The notes beneath the pieces are model-generated. The model worked only from the letters and a program-made list of their open reading frames with translations, was not told where the DNA came from and ran no database searches. From a virus: a stretch of DNA of 20,744 nt. Of the stretch, positions 1-6,362 are shown piece after piece. Location: IMG/VR virus record IMGVR_UViG_3300025070_000299, positions 1 to 20,744 of that record; one strand, written 5' to 3'. Positions within the stretch are counted from its first letter, which is position 1; every line of letters starts with the position of its first letter. The translations under genes were made by a program, and so were the position numbers.

Positions 1-3000
1 TTTAGAGCAAGACAAACAAATGGTAGTGGTAATTTTAATGTTGGTTATTCTTGGGGTTATATATTAGATGAGGTTATTACAAGTAGTTTTGTAGATTATT
101 GTATATATTTTACTACCACTTCAAATGGTTGGGAAAACGCATTAACTTTTGGGGGTCTTACAATAGGAGATACTTTTGAAGTAGACAACATAGTAGTCCA
201 AGAAGTAGGGCAGAATTGGACAGTTGTTGGTTCAGATGCAAATAATTATGTTGTGCTTGATGGTTCTACTGCAAGATTAAAATTTTTAAATACAAGTCCT
301 GTAACTCAATTAATTGCACAAGGTCTTACACTAACTTCAGGTACAACTTATAAATTAATTGTAGATGTAGCAAGTGTAACAAGTGGTTCTATAAAAATAG
401 ATGTAGCAGGTATATCAGAAATTTTTGATACATCAGGTGTAACAACTAGAATAGTAACTCCTACATCAACCACATCTTCTGTGTCTTTTTATAGAGCAAG
501 TGCAGATGTAGATATAACATTAAATAGCGTAACATTACAAGAACTAAAACACCAAGCCACAAACTTATTAGTTAACTCTGGTGATTACCAAAGTGCAAAT
601 CCATTACTTACTTCTACTAAGAGTATGAACTTTGATGGTATAGATGATTATTTACAACTAAGCGAACCTATTAGCTACACTAATCATACAATATGTGGTT
701 GGGCATATTCAGGTGTTACTAACGCAAATAATATGATTTTTTCAGCATCTGATACTTCATCTGATGGTATTAGATTAGTTTATAGAAGTTCATCTAATTT
801 TAGATACGAAGTAAATGGTGTAAATATTGATACTGCTGCTGATACTAGAGAAGCAAATAGATGGTATTTTGTGTGTGGAACTTATGATGGTACAACTGCA
901 AGGTTGTATATTGATGGAGTAGAATTAGCTAATGCAACAACATCAGAAACAATATCTACAACAACAAACGCAAGAATAGGAAGTGTTTCTTATGCAGAAT
1001 CTGCCCTTTTTGATGGTAAAATAACAGAAGTAGGTGCTTATAACAGAGCATTAACATCATTAGAAGTAGCATCACTATATAATCAAGGTGTCCCAACTGA
1101 TTTACTTGTAAATAGAAACAATTATCAATCTGGAAATCCTGTATTATTTAACACTAAGCAAGTTAATTTTGATGGTGTTGATGATAAGTTAGTGGCTAAT
1201 TATGTAGGTGATTTTACAGGTTCTATATCTGCTTGGGTAAATAGAGATAGTAATAGTGGGTATCAATTTATAATTGATGCAAGGTCTAATTCAGGAACAG
1301 GTTGGATATATTTTGCAATTGGTTCTAATGTTTTAGCTTCTTCAGATGGAACTATATATGTTGATGGTATATTAGACAATTCAGCACCTACTGATGGTAA
1401 TTGGCATCACGTTGTAGTAACAGGTATTACTTTAGACATAACTGAATCAATAGTTTTTGGTTCTGGCAATGATACAACTGACCATTGTTTTGATGGTAAA
1501 ATGAGTCAAGTAGGTTTATGGAACACTACACTAACTGCTGATGAAGTATCTTCTTTATACAATCACGGATTACCTATTGACTTAATGACAGATCAAGCAG
1601 CTTATGAATCTTCATCTAACTTAGTAGGTTATTGGAGAATGGGTAGTGGAACTAATGATGGTTTTCCTGTAATATCAGATCAATTAAGTCCTAGCCTTGA
1701 TCATATATCTACTACTAATCTTGTAACTTATAGTGAAGATTTTACTCAATGGAGTAAAACAGGTACTACAGATGTCTCTCCAAATGATAATATTTCTCCT
1801 GATGGTACACAAAACGCAAGTACAGTAAGTGGATTAACAGGTAGTGGTAGTAACGATTTATATCTTATAACAGGAGGAAATCCTGCGAGTAAATCATACT
1901 CTTTTTCAGTTTATTTAAAAGGCTCAGGAACATTAAGATTGCAAATTTCAAATAATGTAAACCAAGGAATAGGTCTAAATGTTACACTAACAAGCGATTG
2001 GAAAAGACATATAGTTACAGGTACTTTTAATTCAACATCAGGTACTTTATCGGCTACACTTGATGACAATGGTGCAACCGCAACACAATACAATATATGG
2101 GGCGCACAACTAGAAGAACACCCAATAGCTACTCCATACGTAAAATCAAATGGTATTCCTGGGCAAAGAAAATCATCTACTACTAACACCTTAACATATA
2201 GTGAAGATTTTAATGAGTGGACTATAGATGGTAATTCAAGTATTACATCTAATGCAACAACATCTCCTACAGGAACTTCTAATGCTACAAAATTAATAGC
2301 AGGTTCAAGTAGTGGTAGACAAGCAATAAAATTAAACAATGCATCAGTAGGAGATTTAACAGTTAGTGTTTTTGCAAAAAAAGGAGAGTATTCAGTAATA
2401 CAATTAACAGATGCACGAAGTGGTTCTGTTTTTATTAATTTTGATTTAGAAAATGGCTCTTTAGGTTCTTCTAATGTTATGATTGGAAAAATTGAAAATT
2501 TAGGTAATGATTGGTATAGATGTTCGGCTACATATAATTCTGCTTTTGACATTATAGCTTTTAGAATATCTATTGCTGAAAGTTCTACATCTACAAGGTT
2601 GCAAACTTTTTCAGGTAATGATTCTGATGGTCTTTACATTTGGGGTGCACAGTTAGAACAACAAACACAAGCAACACCTTATATAAAAACAAATGGTTCA
2701 CCTGTTACAGTGGAGTTTTACAAAGAAAATAACTACGCTGAAATGGTTAACCTAGGTGGTGGTGATAACTTCGCAAGAGGTATTCAAAATGGTAGTCCTT
2801 ATGCTAATACATTACAATACCCAAATGATTTTAGTCAATATTCAACAGGTGGTAGTACTCCACCAACTTTAACAACAGGTCAATTAGCACCTGATGGAAC
2901 TTTAACTGCAACAAAAGTAAGTGGGGTTATTGGTAGTTCAAGTTTATATACAAGTGCAGAATCTTCTGTAACTGCTACTAGAAGTATATATGCAAGAACA

Positions 3001-4953
3001 GTAAGTGGTACAGGTACTGCAAGTTTAATGAGTTATCATTCAAACACAAATAACACTTTTACAATTACAGAAGAATGGCAAAGATTTGAATTAACAGGTT
3101 CTATTGCAACAGGTGGTGCAAATTTTTATGCTATAGATTTTAGAGATAATTCAACTACATTAAGTGAACTTATAATATGGGGCGCTAATTCTCAAGAACC
3201 AAACACAGGATTACAAGGATATTGGAAGATGGGAGATGGTACTAATGATGAGTACCCTATTATCTATGACCAAACAAATCCTACACTTAGTTCTGAACTT
3301 GTTACTAATGGAGATTTTGCAACTGATTCAGATTGGATTTATGGAGATGGTTGGAATATTGAAGATGGTTTTGCTAAATGTAACGGAACACAAACAGGTA
3401 ATTCTATTTTTTACCAAAATTTAGGAGATTTATCTAATAAGACAGTAAAATTTACTTTTACCATTAGTAACTTTGGTGGTGGGGAATTAGAAACATCTTT
3501 TTTTGGTGCATCAGGTACTACTGTGTTTGAAGTAACTGCAAATGGAGATTATACTTTTTATGTAAATGTTCATTCAGGACATAATGGAAATACAGGTTTT
3601 ACTGCAAATTCAAGTTTTATAGGTTATGTTGATAATGTATCAGTTAAAGAAGTACAAGGCAATCCTGCTTATATGACCTCTATGGTAGAGGGTAATATCA
3701 CTAACCAATATCCACTAACAAAGCTTAGAAATTATTACAGAATGGGTGATGGTATATTAGATTCTAAATTCCTTAGTTATCCAACAAATCCTAATACAGA
3801 CGCTCCTTACATATTCCAAGACCAAACAAGTCCTAATCTTGCTCATATTCCTACTACTAATCTTATAACATATTCAGAAGACATAACTTTATCTAATGGT
3901 TATTCAGTTAATAATGCTACAATTTCAAGTAATCAAGGCATAAGTCCTATTGGAGATAATAATGCTACTAAATTAACTGCAACTACAAATGACCCTTTTT
4001 TAAGCAATGTAGTTAATACTACTAATAAAACTTTTACTTTAAGTGTATATGCTAAAGGAGTTGGAAGTAGTGTTGGCAAAGACATTCAGTTTATTTTAGT
4101 AAGAGATAGTTATTTAGAAGCAAAAATATCAGATTCATTTGTTTTAACAGATGATTGGGTTAGATATGAAGCTACTTTAACTTTGACAGGAACACCATCA
4201 TCATTTGTTATTTTTAGGATAGATGCACCTAGTGTTGCAGTAGCAGGGGATGAAGTTTTAGTTTGGGGTTGTCAATTTGAAGAACAATCACAAGCTACTG
4301 CATATATAAAGTCAGATGGTGTAGCAGCAGTGAGAAAATCATCTACTACTAATTTAATAGAATATAGTGAAGATTTTAGTAATGCAAGTTGGCTTAAATT
4401 AAATTCAACAGTAGATCCTAACACAAGTGTTTCTCTTGATGGCACTTTAAATGCAGATGAATTTATACCAAACAATACAACAGCAAATATTTTTATTTAC
4501 AATGAAGCTACTTTTAACGCTTCTCATTATACTTTATCTTTTTTTATTAAATATAATGGTAGACAATACGTACAATTATTATTTGGAAGTAATGTATCTT
4601 TTGATTTTGCTAACTTTGATTTAATTAATCATACTGTTACATCAGGTAACGGAAATATAGAAGATTATGGAAATGATTGGTATAGAATATCTTTAACTTC
4701 AAATGTAAGTGCTGGAACATCTGAGGTTTATTTATGGTCTATTGATTCCGCTACATCTTCAAGGGCATCTGCATCAACAGGAAACGGAGCTAATGGTTAT
4801 TATGTTTACGGAGCGCAACTAGAAGAACAAACACAAGCAGAAACGTATGCACCAACAAAAGGTATACCTGTAACAATAGATTTATTCAAAGAAAATAATT
4901 ACGGACATACACAAGGAGGTGTAATACAAAAGGACGTACCTAGAAATTCATAA
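1..4953 (+). CDS. Giant modular tail fibre / adhesin with LamG and carbohydrate-binding-like modules (5' end outside window)
   Basis: The frame is open from base 1 to the TAA at 4951-4953, giving 1650 visible residues; a GTG at 253 is internal and no start is visible. The protein is a chain of beta-sandwich modules: a module cut by the left edge (1-210), a second of the same kind (about 211-552), two LamG/concanavalin-like domains (625-1089 and 1162-1569, each with an FDG-[IV]-DD opening and a SLYN-[QH]-G end), then six further modules. Most of these start with TYSEDF-like words and end with WGAQLEE...ATxYIK. One (3292-3654) starts with NGDF and ends with DNVSVKEV, as in CBM4/9-type folds. 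LamG and CBM-like modules bind glycans, so the protein probably recognises host surface polysaccharide; this role is inferred. There are no obvious membrane segments or catalytic motifs. It sits directly upstream of the packaging genes. It could instead be a decoration or appendage protein. Confidence 0.85.
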   Translation, partial: FRARQTNGSGNFNVGYSWGYILDEVITSSFVDYCIYFTTTSNGWENALTFGGLTIGDTFEVDNIVVQEVGQNWTVVGSDANNYVVLDGSTARLKFLNTSPVTQLIAQGLTLTSGTTYKLIVDVASVTSGSIKIDVAGISEIFDTSGVTTRIVTPTSTTSSVSFYRASADVDITLNSVTLQELKHQATNLLVNSGDYQSANPLLTSTKSMNFDGIDDYLQLSEPISYTNHTICGWAYSGVTNANNMIFSASDTSSDGIRLVYRSSSNFRYEVNGVNIDTAADTREANRWYFVCGTYDGTTARLYIDGVELANATTSETISTTTNARIGSVSYAESALFDGKITEVGAYNRALTSLEVASLYNQGVPTDLLVNRNNYQSGNPVLFNTKQVNFDGVDDKLVANYVGDFTGSISAWVNRDSNSGYQFIIDARSNSGTGWIYFAIGSNVLASSDGTIYVDGILDNSAPTDGNWHHVVVTGITLDITESIVFGSGNDTTDHCFDGKMSQVGLWNTTLTADEVSSLYNHGLPIDLMTDQAAYESSSNLVGYWRMGSGTNDGFPVISDQLSPSLDHISTTNLVTYSEDFTQWSKTGTTDVSPNDNISPDGTQNASTVSGLTGSGSNDLYLITGGNPASKSYSFSVYLKGSGTLRLQISNNVNQGIGLNVTLTSDWKRHIVTGTFNSTSGTLSATLDDNGATATQYNIWGAQLEEHPIATPYVKSNGIPGQRKSSTTNTLTYSEDFNEWTIDGNSSITSNATTSPTGTSNATKLIAGSSSGRQAIKLNNASVGDLTVSVFAKKGEYSVIQLTDARSGSVFINFDLENGSLGSSNVMIGKIENLGNDWYRCSATYNSAFDIIAFRISIAESSTSTRLQTFSGNDSDGLYIWGAQLEQQTQATPYIKTNGSPVTVEFYKENNYAEMVNLGGGDNFARGIQNGSPYANTLQYPNDFSQYSTGGSTPPTLTTGQLAPDGTLTATKVSGVIGSSSLYTSAESSVTATRSIYARTVSGTGTASLMSYHSNTNNTFTITEEWQRFELTGSIATGGANFYAIDFRDNSTTLSELIIWGANSQEPNTGLQGYWKMGDGTNDEYPIIYDQTNPTLSSELVTNGDFATDSDWIYGDGWNIEDGFAKCNGTQTGNSIFYQNLGDLSNKTVKFTFTISNFGGGELETSFFGASGTTVFEVTANGDYTFYVNVHSGHNGNTGFTANSSFIGYVDNVSVKEVQGNPAYMTSMVEGNITNQYPLTKLRNYYRMGDGILDSKFLSYPTNPNTDAPYIFQDQTSPNLAHIPTTNLITYSEDITLSNGYSVNNATISSNQGISPIGDNNATKLTATTNDPFLSNVVNTTNKTFTLSVYAKGVGSSVGKDIQFILVRDSYLEAKISDSFVLTDDWVRYEATLTLTGTPSSFVIFRIDAPSVAVAGDEVLVWGCQFEEQSQATAYIKSDGVAAVRKSSTTNLIEYSEDFSNASWLKLNSTVDPNTSVSLDGTLNADEFIPNNTTANIFIYNEATFNASHYTLSFFIKYNGRQYVQLLFGSNVSFDFANFDLINHTVTSGNGNIEDYGNDWYRISLTSNVSAGTSEVYLWSIDSATSSRASASTGNGANGYYVYGAQLEEQTQAETYAPTKGIPVTIDLFKENNYGHTQGGVIQKDVPRNS
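625..1089 (+). other. LamG-like domain 1 within the fibre gene
   Basis: This segment encodes a laminin-G/concanavalin-like lectin domain. It opens with MNFDGIDDYL, has a central RWYFVCGTYDGTTARLYIDG strand pair, and closes with NRALTSLEVASLYNQG. These are the usual landmarks of LamG_3-type domains. It is preceded by a linker at about 565-624 that recurs before the second LamG domain. Confidence 0.85.
1162..1569 (+). other. LamG-like domain 2 within the fibre gene
   Basis: This is a second, shorter and diverged LamG-like domain. It opens with VNFDGVDDKL, has NWHHVVVTG in the middle, and ends with TLTADEVSSLYNHG. It shares its opening, its end and its preceding linker with the first LamG domain, which suggests tandem duplication followed by divergence. 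Confidence 0.82.
1711..2154 (+). repeat. Fibre repeat module A (YSEDF...WGAQLEE type)
   Basis: This protein-level repeat begins TTNLVTYSEDF and ends IWGAQLEE...ATPYVKSNG. The pattern is common in phage tail proteins carrying jelly-roll carbohydrate-binding-like domains. Modules B, E and F share both ends; the interior is strongly diverged. Confidence 0.75.
2179..2697 (+). repeat. Fibre repeat module B (YSEDF...WGAQLEQ type)
   Basis: The module begins TTNTLTYSEDFNEW and ends YIWGAQLEQQTQATPYIKTNG. It contains GNDWYRCSATYN, matched by GNDWYRISLTSN in module F, so B and F look like the closest pair. The 20-base DNA word just before it is also found before F. Confidence 0.75.
2803..3201 (+). repeat. 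Fibre repeat module C (degenerate YPNDF...WGANSQEP type)
   Basis: The module begins ANTLQYPNDFSQY and ends IIWGANSQEP. The opening and the WGA strand align with the other modules, but the closing YIK segment is missing. It passes straight into a GYWKMGDG linker. It is the most diverged of the five modules of this type. Confidence 0.6.
3292..3654 (+). repeat. Fibre module D (NGDF...DNVSVKEV, CBM4/9-like)
   Basis: The module opens SELVTNGDFATDSDW, has WNIEDGFAKCNG, and ends GYVDNVSVKEV. This is the usual frame of phage-tail CBM4/9-like beta sandwiches. The two modules at the left edge of the window end in a similar way (VDNIVVQEV and LNSVTLQEL), so the gene carries at least three of this class. 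Confidence 0.65.
3853..4320 (+). repeat. Fibre repeat module E (YSED...WGCQFEE type)
   Basis: The module begins TTNLITYSEDI and ends VWGCQFEEQSQATAYIKSDG. It is the same module family as A, B and F, and is followed directly by the RKSSTTN junction that starts module F. Confidence 0.73.
4345..4863 (+). repeat. Fibre repeat module F (YSEDF...YGAQLEE type), C-terminal
   Basis: The module begins TTNLIEYSEDFSNASW and ends VYGAQLEEQTQAETYAPTKG. It is the last module of the protein and is followed by a short tail of about 30 residues containing FKENNYG. A similar FKENNY-like word (FYKENNYA) follows module B. Confidence 0.75.
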
Positions 4954-4971: not shown

Positions 4972-5220
4972 ATGATATATACAACACCACTTACAAGTTT
5001 ATTAGAAGAGGTTGACGAAGAGGGAAACCCAGTAGTTGACTTTTCAAAAATAGTAGAAAACTCTGCAGCAACTGTTAGGCGTTCTTTAGATGGAACAAAG
5101 TTTATTGCTAAGTTTTACGGAGAAACTCCATCTTTCTTAGAAGGCTTAGATCAGTATACTCACGAAGAGATACTAGCAATAGTTAGAGGATCAGACTGGA
5201 CAGACAACTCTGATATTTAG
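4972..5220 (+). CDS. Small acidic protein of unknown function (82 aa)
   Basis: The start is ATG after an A-rich leader (AATTAAAAATAAAAACAA) 18 bases past the fibre stop, so it is probably cotranscribed with the fibre gene. The product is acidic and soluble, with no signal peptide or membrane segment. It has a Glu/Asp-rich N-terminal third, a central TVRRSLDGTKFIAKFYG strand-like stretch, and a C-terminal LDQYTHEEILAIVRG helix followed by SDWTDN. No family is recognised. Its place between a giant fibre and the packaging genes would fit a small virion or assembly accessory protein, but nothing in the sequence shows this. Confidence 0.75.
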   Translation: MIYTTPLTSLLEEVDEEGNPVVDFSKIVENSAATVRRSLDGTKFIAKFYGETPSFLEGLDQYTHEEILAIVRGSDWTDNSDI

Positions 5221-5558: not shown

Positions 5559-5754
5559 TATCGGTAAAGATTATAAAAATGACGCTATGCACTATGCTGT
5601 TGGACAAGATGTATATGGTGGTCATACTATATGTGATATTATAGAAGAAGACGATAAGTACAGCGTGTACATTAAAAAAGGTAATGATGTTTTGCCTTGG
5701 AAAGATTTTAATAAAAACATGGCTGTATCAGTCGAGTATAATTTACAGTATTAA
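5533..5754 (+). CDS. Conserved-looking hypothetical protein (73 aa)
   Basis: The ATG at 5533 lies inside the preceding gene; the next in-frame ATG would remove the KISIGKDYKNDAMHY segment, so the upstream start is preferred. The product is a small, probably beta-rich protein: IGKDYK, VGQDVYGGHTICDII, KYSVYIKKGNDVLPWKDF and a C-terminal VSVEYNLQY. There are no membrane segments or recognised catalytic motifs. Its stop overlaps the next start by one base (TAATG), so the two are likely translated together. Function unknown. Confidence 0.75.
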   Translation: MSKLIRKISIGKDYKNDAMHYAVGQDVYGGHTICDIIEEDDKYSVYIKKGNDVLPWKDFNKNMAVSVEYNLQY

Positions 5755-6362
5755 TGAAAAGTGTTTATGATTTCGTAGTTTCACCTATAAAATCAAGATA
5801 CAACAACACAAAAAAAATAGGTGATAAAGAACTAGTAGTTAATACTGAAATATTCAACCACCAGTTTGTAAGCAGGGAAGCTGTTGTAAAGTCTGTACCA
5901 TTAATAGGTGAGACAAACATAAAGGTTGGTGATAAGGTTATACTCCACCATAATGTGTTTAGAAGATGGCACAACATGCGTGGTGAGGAAAAGAATAGTA
6001 GAAGTTTTTTCGATGAAGAAACTTATTTCATATCTGAGGAGCAAATATTTCTATACAAATCAGAAGATACTGATTGGAGAGCTTCAAAAGGATATTGTTT
6101 TGTAAAACCAATAGTTTCTAAAAATAATTTAGACACTAATATTGAAGAACCTTTAATAGGTGTTTTAAAATACCTAGATGATGGTTTAGAAGCCACTGGT
6201 TTACAGAAAGACGATTTAGTAGGCTTTAGTCCAGATGATGAATATGAATTCGTTATAGATGGTCAAAGACTATATAGGGTTATGACACAATTTATTACAA
6301 TTAAATATGAATATCAAGGAAACGAAGAAGAATATAATCCAAGCTGGGCACAGGGCAGTTGA
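5754..6362 (+). CDS. Putative tandem GroES-like co-chaperonin (202 aa)
   Basis: The N-terminal half (about residues 1-103) reads like a GroES/Cpn10 barrel: FVVSPIKSR at the start, REAVVKSVP, then IKVGDKVILHHNVFRRW, and a closing YFISEEQIFLYK that parallels the 'vlimsEsDIlai' end of GroES. The second half (about 110-190) repeats the plan: CFVKPIVS, PLIGVLKYLDDG, LQKDDLVGFSPDDEYEF, then a closing LYRVMTQFITIKYE. Phage GroES substitutes such as T4 gp31 work with host GroEL to fold the capsid protein; a similar role here is inferred from the fold-like pattern and from the position next to the packaging and head genes. A clear GroEL-binding mobile loop is not obvious, though residues 25-38 could serve. 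It overlaps the upstream gene by one base and the downstream gene by 56 bases. Confidence 0.55.
   Translation: MKSVYDFVVSPIKSRYNNTKKIGDKELVVNTEIFNHQFVSREAVVKSVPLIGETNIKVGDKVILHHNVFRRWHNMRGEEKNSRSFFDEETYFISEEQIFLYKSEDTDWRASKGYCFVKPIVSKNNLDTNIEEPLIGVLKYLDDGLEATGLQKDDLVGFSPDDEYEFVIDGQRLYRVMTQFITIKYEYQGNEEEYNPSWAQGS

Follow-up and report, generated by a model that had tools for sequence, protein, structure and literature searches.

Conserved linkers and replaced modules in a giant phage fibre shared by three phage types

The Fibre Gene and Its Modules

The window analysed here spans an entire viral contig of 20,744 bases (IMG/VR record IMGVR_UViG_3300025070_000299). Its terminase, portal, and virion proteins match PHROG families, and the nearest named record by terminase is an uncultured podovirus (63% identity), followed by the Flavobacterium elemo, Cellulophaga, Tenacibaculum, and Maribacter phages at ~45% identity at best; these related cultured phages point to Flavobacteriia as the probable hosts. 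Positions 1–4953 of the plus strand form a single open frame of 1650 aa with a stop at the 3' end and an open 5' end, the start codon lying outside the window because the gene is cut by the contig end. The initial annotation had described at least 1650 residues in one frame; this ORF is real, with the addition that the fibre gene is 5'-truncated here (1650 of ~2169 aa). The full length is given by a contig of the same population (L084, 99.97% identical to the window over 13,861 bp), where the complete fibre (L084:4793–11299) has 2169 aa and begins with MGLGLGLGLNKPKG.

For segmentation, HMMs were seeded with three motif classes (the window included), coded L for LamG, N for the NGDF class, and Y for the YSEDF class, and were iterated over all relatives. 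Ten modules are recognised in the window, in the order NNLLYYYNYY and with domain E-values of 8.6e-11 to 2.2e-59, in agreement with the two LamG, three NGDF, and five YSEDF modules (one degenerate) counted previously by eye; independent support for this segmentation matters, since the window was among the seeds of these HMMs. The complete fibre of the same population contains 13 modules (LNNNNLLYYYNYY), and other complete family members range from 5 (LLNYY) to 15 (LNNNNNNLLYYNNYY).

All features of the array lie on the plus strand, and the modules were delimited by HMM. The array begins with N module 1 (positions 1–216, residues 1–72, cut by the contig end) and N module 2 (205–552, residues 69–184), followed by the N-to-L linker QATNLLVNSGDYQSANPLLT (553–612). 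LamG module 3 (613–1104, residues 205–368; also a Pfam Laminin_G_3 match) and LamG module 4 (1150–1584, residues 384–528; also Pfam stretches) are joined by the L-to-L linker LVNRNNYQSGNPVLF (1105–1149), and an L-to-Y linker ending in GYWRMGSGTNDGFPVISDQLSPSLDHIS (1585–1710) leads to Y module 5 (1711–2154, residues 571–718). A short Y-to-Y linker (IPGQRKSS, 2155–2178) precedes Y module 6 (2179–2697, residues 727–899), and the linker SPVTVEFYKENNYAEMVNLGGGDNFARGIQNGSPY (2698–2802) precedes the degenerate Y module 7 (2803–3207, residues 935–1069). A linker beginning with GLQGYWKMGDGTNDEYPIIYDQTNPT (3208–3321) extends up to N module 8 (3322–3663, residues 1108–1221), after which come linker A (PAYMTSM..GNITNQYPLTKLRNYYRMGDG..DQTSPNLAHIP, 3664–3852), Y module 9 (3853–4320, residues 1285–1440), linker B (VAAVRKSS, 4321–4344), Y module 10 (4345–4863, residues 1449–1621), and a C-terminal linker (IPVTIDLFKENNYGHTQGGVIQKDVPRNS) with the stop codon (4864–4953). 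The linkers at 1585–1710, 3208–3321, and 3664–3852 resemble one another (Y[WY][RK]MG[DS]G..D..P.I.DQ..P), and two further linkers have an ENNY motif in common; these likenesses suggest that the scaffold itself may have grown by duplication.

Three Phage Backbones and a Common Cassette

Relatives were collected with the 70-aa linker A as bait, using back-translated degenerate patterns, which yielded 55 loci; a homologous long ORF is present in most of them. The relatives are without exception metagenomic contigs, their slot labels are taken from linker motifs, and the family is the one reached through this single linker. Clustering by neighbouring genes separates three sets of loci that have a common cassette (a small upstream ORF, the fibre, and an 82-aa ORF) and different packaging and virion genes: backbone I, the podovirus type of the window (12 loci); backbone II, siphovirus-like, with a portal related to Nonlabens phage P12024S/L (28 loci, L092 being assigned by its upstream genes); and backbone III, siphovirus-like, with a terminase related to Croceibacter phage P2559Y (11 loci). 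The upstream ORF (83–129 aa, beta-rich in appearance) stands directly before the fibre in the complete cases. The 82-aa ORF (4972–5220 in the window, plus strand) accompanies the fibre in all three backbones, being present in 52 loci at a median of 16 bp behind the fibre; it has no Pfam or PHROG match, and from its position it could be an assembly partner of the fibre. A homolog of this ORF lies directly behind a 960-aa multi-LamG protein in Synechococcus phage S-SKS1 (L142, 37–3201), and since this is a cyanophage, the pairing of a LamG fibre with a small partner extends beyond flavobacterial phages.

The giant fibre is present in only one of the 80 terminase relatives examined, the others carrying single-LamG or Peptidase_S74-ending proteins in the same region; in four of them (L048, L052, L063, and L066) the locus encodes proteins of 1300–1850 aa that end in a Peptidase_S74 chaperone. 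Taken as a whole, the locus gives the impression of a hot spot for adhesin exchange, and its S74 spikes and LamG proteins in relatives, together with homology, mark the fibre as a putative receptor-binding protein. Other genes in the vicinity include a GroES-like co-chaperonin in the window (5754–6362; phrog_13932, 2.8e-22), a GroEL-like chaperonin upstream in a terminase relative (L024:1608–3179; Cpn60, 1e-52), and a small gene two genes upstream of the fibre (L084:4088–4474) with a weak, below-cut-off match to GTA_holin_3TM (6e-4).

Folds and Predicted Binding

Three stretches of the fibre match Pfam Laminin_G_3 (PF13385; 91.7 bits against a cut-off of 27.6, E 6.8e-26), and the PHROG matches include phrog_5939 (tail protein, 2e-65) and phrog_34853 (5e-63). 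The LamG part (window residues 419–561) also matches phrog_347 (5e-17), a family that bears the label tail terminator; this label may be wrong or derived from a fused family. CBM_4_9 (PF02018) is found above its cut-off in window module Y9 (26.9 against 25.9 bits) and, at E ≤ 0.1, in 8 of 34 related Y modules and 1 of 23 N modules, window module N8 having no match. The Y profile matches the head-spike fibre Rcc01080 of the RcGTA in the PDB (E 7.2e-24, Rcc01080 residues 85–258), as well as the phage structural proteins 8env, 9b45, and 9occ.

Modelled by AlphaFold together with its linkers, Y9 folds into a beta sandwich; confidence is good in the core and low in the linkers, and the best PDB structure matches of the model are CBM22, CBM4, CBM16, and CBM29 modules together with phage tail fibre and tailspike domains. 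Module N8 is likewise modelled as a CBM-like sandwich, with a porphyran-binding CBM as its best match. Whole-model TM-scores are modest (~0.4–0.5 by query), in part because the linkers are unstructured in monomer models. The Y and N models are thus consistent with the beta-sandwich modules that had been recognised from motifs, and the profile searches bear out the LamG assignment and, for module Y9, a match to CBM4/9. The fold is common to Y and N modules and to CBM families 4/9, 16, 22, and 29 and the porphyran-binding CBM, at low sequence identity (10–20%). Multivalent glycan binding, as initially proposed, is supported as regards fold and homology (Rcc01080 and the CBM matches), from which we infer that the modules may bind surface polysaccharides.

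Position on the Virion

The fibre of the RcGTA head spike (Rcc01080, with base Rcc01079; PDB 6tb9; PMC7296036, PMC10218006) offers a model for the placement of this protein. Its N-terminus, I-A-L-G-L-G-L-G-L, binds base proteins that form a pentamer on the capsid (PMC7296036), and the fibre has been shown to bind capsule and attaches particles to it (PMC10218006). The family described here is like it in the homology of the Y modules, in an alternating Leu-Gly N-terminus, and in the small gene directly upstream; it is unlike it in that Rcc01080 has 325 aa and one such domain, whereas 5–15 modules of three classes with conserved linkers are found here, and in that the upstream ORF has no detectable homology to Rcc01079 (sought in five ways, by sequence and profile). 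The podovirus-type fibres of L084, L085, and L086 start with MGLGLGLGL, a part absent from the truncated window. Terminase relatives encode short LamG proteins at this locus that begin with MGLGLGLG, MALGLGLGL, MLGLGN, or similar, usually with a small ORF before them. The fibres of backbones II and III (MLALANKLSL, MLSLGNKLTL) follow a looser MLxL pattern that bears only a loose likeness to the anchor. A Y domain also lies behind an Rcc01079 homolog in RcapMu58, yet without a (Gly-Leu)n start as annotated; this counts against a head-fibre assignment, as does the lack of detectable homology between the upstream ORF and Rcc01079.

A head (capsid) fibre is somewhat favoured for the phage type of the window, because of the MGLGLGLGL start and the homology of the Y modules to Rcc01080. 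The same module exchange could take place in a tail fibre, with the N-terminal part attached to the tail, and this placement, though the less probable one, retains considerable weight: the PHROG labels of the matching families are those of tail proteins, several phage relatives carry a tail-fibre annotation, and the PDB hits of the Y profile include tail fibre and baseplate proteins (9occ, 9b45). It fits less well with an N-terminus resembling the RcGTA capsid-anchor peptide and with the location of the gene, which in all three backbones adjoins packaging and portal genes and lies away from tail genes.

Linkers Are Kept While Modules Are Replaced

Alignment of the window with a close relative (L085) demonstrates the pattern most clearly. 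The two are 97% identical from position 4816 on, and inside the gene alignment is confined to the linkers, which form islands of 84–96% DNA identity: 94% at window 536–654 (N-to-L linker), 90% at 1058–1192 (L-to-L), 92% at 1488–1719 (L-to-Y), 92% at 2095–2213 (IPGQRKSS), 90% at 2635–2816 and 96% at 3194–3284 (on either side of module Y7), and 91% at 4256–4380 (linker B). Only linker islands align inside the gene with L086 as well. The class of a module may also change within one slot: behind the linker GIQNGSPYAN, the window has a Y module (Y7), and L085, L086, and nearly all others have an N module.

Across 43 fibres (903 pairs), the median amino-acid identities of three C-terminal linkers are 0.90, 0.87, and 0.86, and those of the two modules between them are 0.29 and 0.32; modules of different slots are 0.30 identical, such that modules of the same slot are no more alike than those of different slots. 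With near-duplicate genomes removed, the same-slot identities are bimodal, with 96% of pairs below 40%, ~1% at 80% or above, and almost none between. At four-fold sites, the linkers are 0.86–0.90 identical within backbones and 0.85–0.90 between backbones (chance 0.48), while the within-backbone values for core genes span 0.42 to 0.97, and the two measures are uncorrelated (r 0.21, −0.07, and 0.06; core genes from a subset of loci). These and later linker statistics leave out L076, a member of the TerL set whose N, L, and Y modules occur without these linkers. The bait patterns, being back-translated and degenerate, did not select for synonymous identity, but the amino-acid sequence of linker A was selected for. 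Either recent exchange of linker DNA or nucleotide constraint could explain the synonymous identity, and the sharing of single modules with low dS tips the balance towards exchange.

Modules in Other Slots and Other Phages

Individual modules recur outside their slot and outside their phage type. Window module Y5 is the same module as Y9 of L097 (92.7%), Y11 of L086 (88.7%), and Y2 of L113 (83.1%), i.e., it occupies four different slots, and window module Y9 recurs in L103, a backbone III phage. Among module pairs with at least 80% amino-acid identity across backbones, 9 are in different slots and 13 in the same slot; the dS of the tested cross-backbone pairs is 0 to 0.22, and the pooled dN/dS of 0.39 identifies the shared modules as conserved units. 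In different-slot pairs, DNA identity is mostly 80–100% for each stretch of 30 nt within the module and drops at its borders, the slot-specific linkers staying in place, while same-slot pairs often retain the linkers too. Short shared motifs are found at the module edges (when the window is aligned with L097, for example, TCTACTACTAA and GAAGATTTTA at the left edge and ATATGGGGCGCACAACTAGAAGAA at the right) and could serve as short homologies for recombination. The pool is large, with Chao1 estimates of 114 Y, 318 N, and 48 L module types.

No module pair within a protein reaches 60% identity, a result of little weight against intragenic duplication given that only 0.7 (Y) and 0.6 (N) such pairs are expected, and a search of genome contigs with the linker profile confirmed no host or prophage copies. 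No phage recombinase could be connected with the exchange; an ERF gene occurs only in L048, which is without the cassette, and a sub-threshold RecT fragment in L110. By eye, a 688-aa protein (L112:15992–18055) has an apparent NGDF-like module (VQNGNF..TDIQVQ) that is missing from its 569-aa counterpart (L110:15921–17627), such that modules may enter another virion protein too.

The initial suggestion of domain shuffling is strongly supported by slot replacement, slot hopping, and class switching, observed both between near-identical and between unrelated phages, and the locus alignment displays module replacement with varying number and class in place of a fixed architecture. In the contigs compared, the gene behaves as an exchangeable module array in which linkers are kept, modules are replaced, the class is switched in one slot, and modules are moved between slots and backbones; homologous recombination at the linkers, binding of surface polysaccharides, and a capsid location are the putative parts of the picture.

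Interpretation and Alternatives

The reading preferred here, at a probability of roughly 0.68, is that of a glycan-binding fibre, probably mounted on the capsid, that is diversified by exchange of whole modules at conserved linkers. The protein would be a long adhesion fibre in which slot-specific linkers separate 5–15 CBM-like and LamG modules, and co-circulating phages, including those with unrelated backbones, would swap whole modules into and out of the slots by recombination ending in the conserved linkers and module-edge motifs. The specificity of the adhesin could then change in one step with the scaffold undisturbed. In the phage type of the window, the fibre would probably sit on capsid vertices, like the RcGTA head-spike fibre, attached via the N-terminal (Gly-Leu)n peptide and the small protein encoded directly upstream.

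A rather unlikely alternative, albeit the strongest rival to exchange at the linkers, is that whole fibre genes are transferred, that modules are lost and gained by illegitimate recombination, and that linkers are conserved for structure and not as recombination sites. Some linkers within a gene do co-vary (n-A, r 0.81; n-e, r 0.86), linker amino-acid sequence is strongly conserved, and C-terminal linker types are partly backbone-specific. The four-fold sites of the linkers, however, stay at 0.85–0.90 whatever the divergence of the core genes, linkers f, A, B, and C vary mostly independently of each other, and different-slot transfers leave slot-specific linkers in place. Because some linker pairs co-vary, part of the spread is attributed to larger blocks, and both small and larger transfers probably occur.

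Joining of modules at shared linkers during metagenome assembly is very improbable: shared linkers are repeats prone to misjoins and the relatives are all metagenomic contigs, but several arrangements were recovered more than once, from different datasets (window/L084/L083; L094/L095/L109; L092/L093; L098/L099), and most shared modules, though very close to each other, are not identical and differ at both synonymous and replacement sites, their partners coming from different datasets. Rapid point-mutational divergence of modules in place under diversifying selection, with no replacement, would account for strongly differing modules between near-identical flanks and linkers, but this hypermutation is contradicted by bimodal identities with almost no intermediates, by the class switch in one slot, by the same module in different slots and backbones, and by the dN/dS of 0.39, leaving it hardly credible. 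Least credible is diversification by a reverse transcriptase (DGR), for which hypervariable phage adhesins are typical targets, since no RVT_1 match was found in 15 records (one complete 61-kb relative included, most others fragments) and the variation concerns whole modules and is not limited to a 3' variable region.

Relation to Known Systems

Mosaicism of receptor-binding proteins and sharing of host-recognition modules by unrelated phages are already established (PMC10684548, PMC10579305). Recent domain exchange in tail fibres and spikes has been described across distant phages (Smug et al. 2023, PMC10684548), and the present family is like those cases in having near-identical domains in otherwise different proteins of unrelated phages; there, mainly terminal domains are exchanged, whereas here there are many internal slots, modules are reusable across slots, and linker synonymous sites are decoupled from the core genome. 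A fibre with a small partner gene is common to podo-, myo-, and sipho-type Alteromonas phages of related hosts (Gonzalez-Serrano et al. 2023, PMC10579305), but those are whole-protein fibre homologs of 35–60% similarity, in contrast to single modules at dS 0–0.22 recombined within a protein. Among cultured flavobacterial phages, the putative tail fibre of Nonlabens phage P12024L (P12024L_10), whose portal is related to backbone II, has a Y module of 37% aa identity; it differs in having 532 aa, one Y module, and none of the conserved linkers. The fibre family itself is not described in the open-access literature searched. The family is set apart by its many internal slots between kept linkers, by the appearance of one module in several slots, and by linkers whose divergence is independent of that of the core genome. 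The linker conservation with module replacement, the cassette in three backbones, and the capsid-pointing N-terminus are all features beyond the reach of the window alone.

Implications

The exchange of phage adhesins is usually viewed as replacement of a terminal domain or of a whole fibre. In the family described here, three unrelated marine phage types draw on one module pool, the synonymous identity of the linkers is far above that of core genes, and the exchange looks like a plug-in system for changing the bacterial surface that is recognised. A bolder and more tentative version is that linkers serve as docking sites for recombination and are kept as such in their nucleotide sequence, and that unrelated phages of the same hosts share an open pool of hundreds of capsid-mounted glycan-binding modules; if true, docking-site linkers would amount to diversification of head fibres at the population level without reverse transcriptase. 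By way of the linkers, such modules could also readily be counted in metagenomes. Should the fibre sit on the capsid, rapid modular turnover would affect adhesion by the capsid besides binding by the tail. The system also offers a model, open to testing, for the way in which marine Bacteroidota phages could follow surface polysaccharides.
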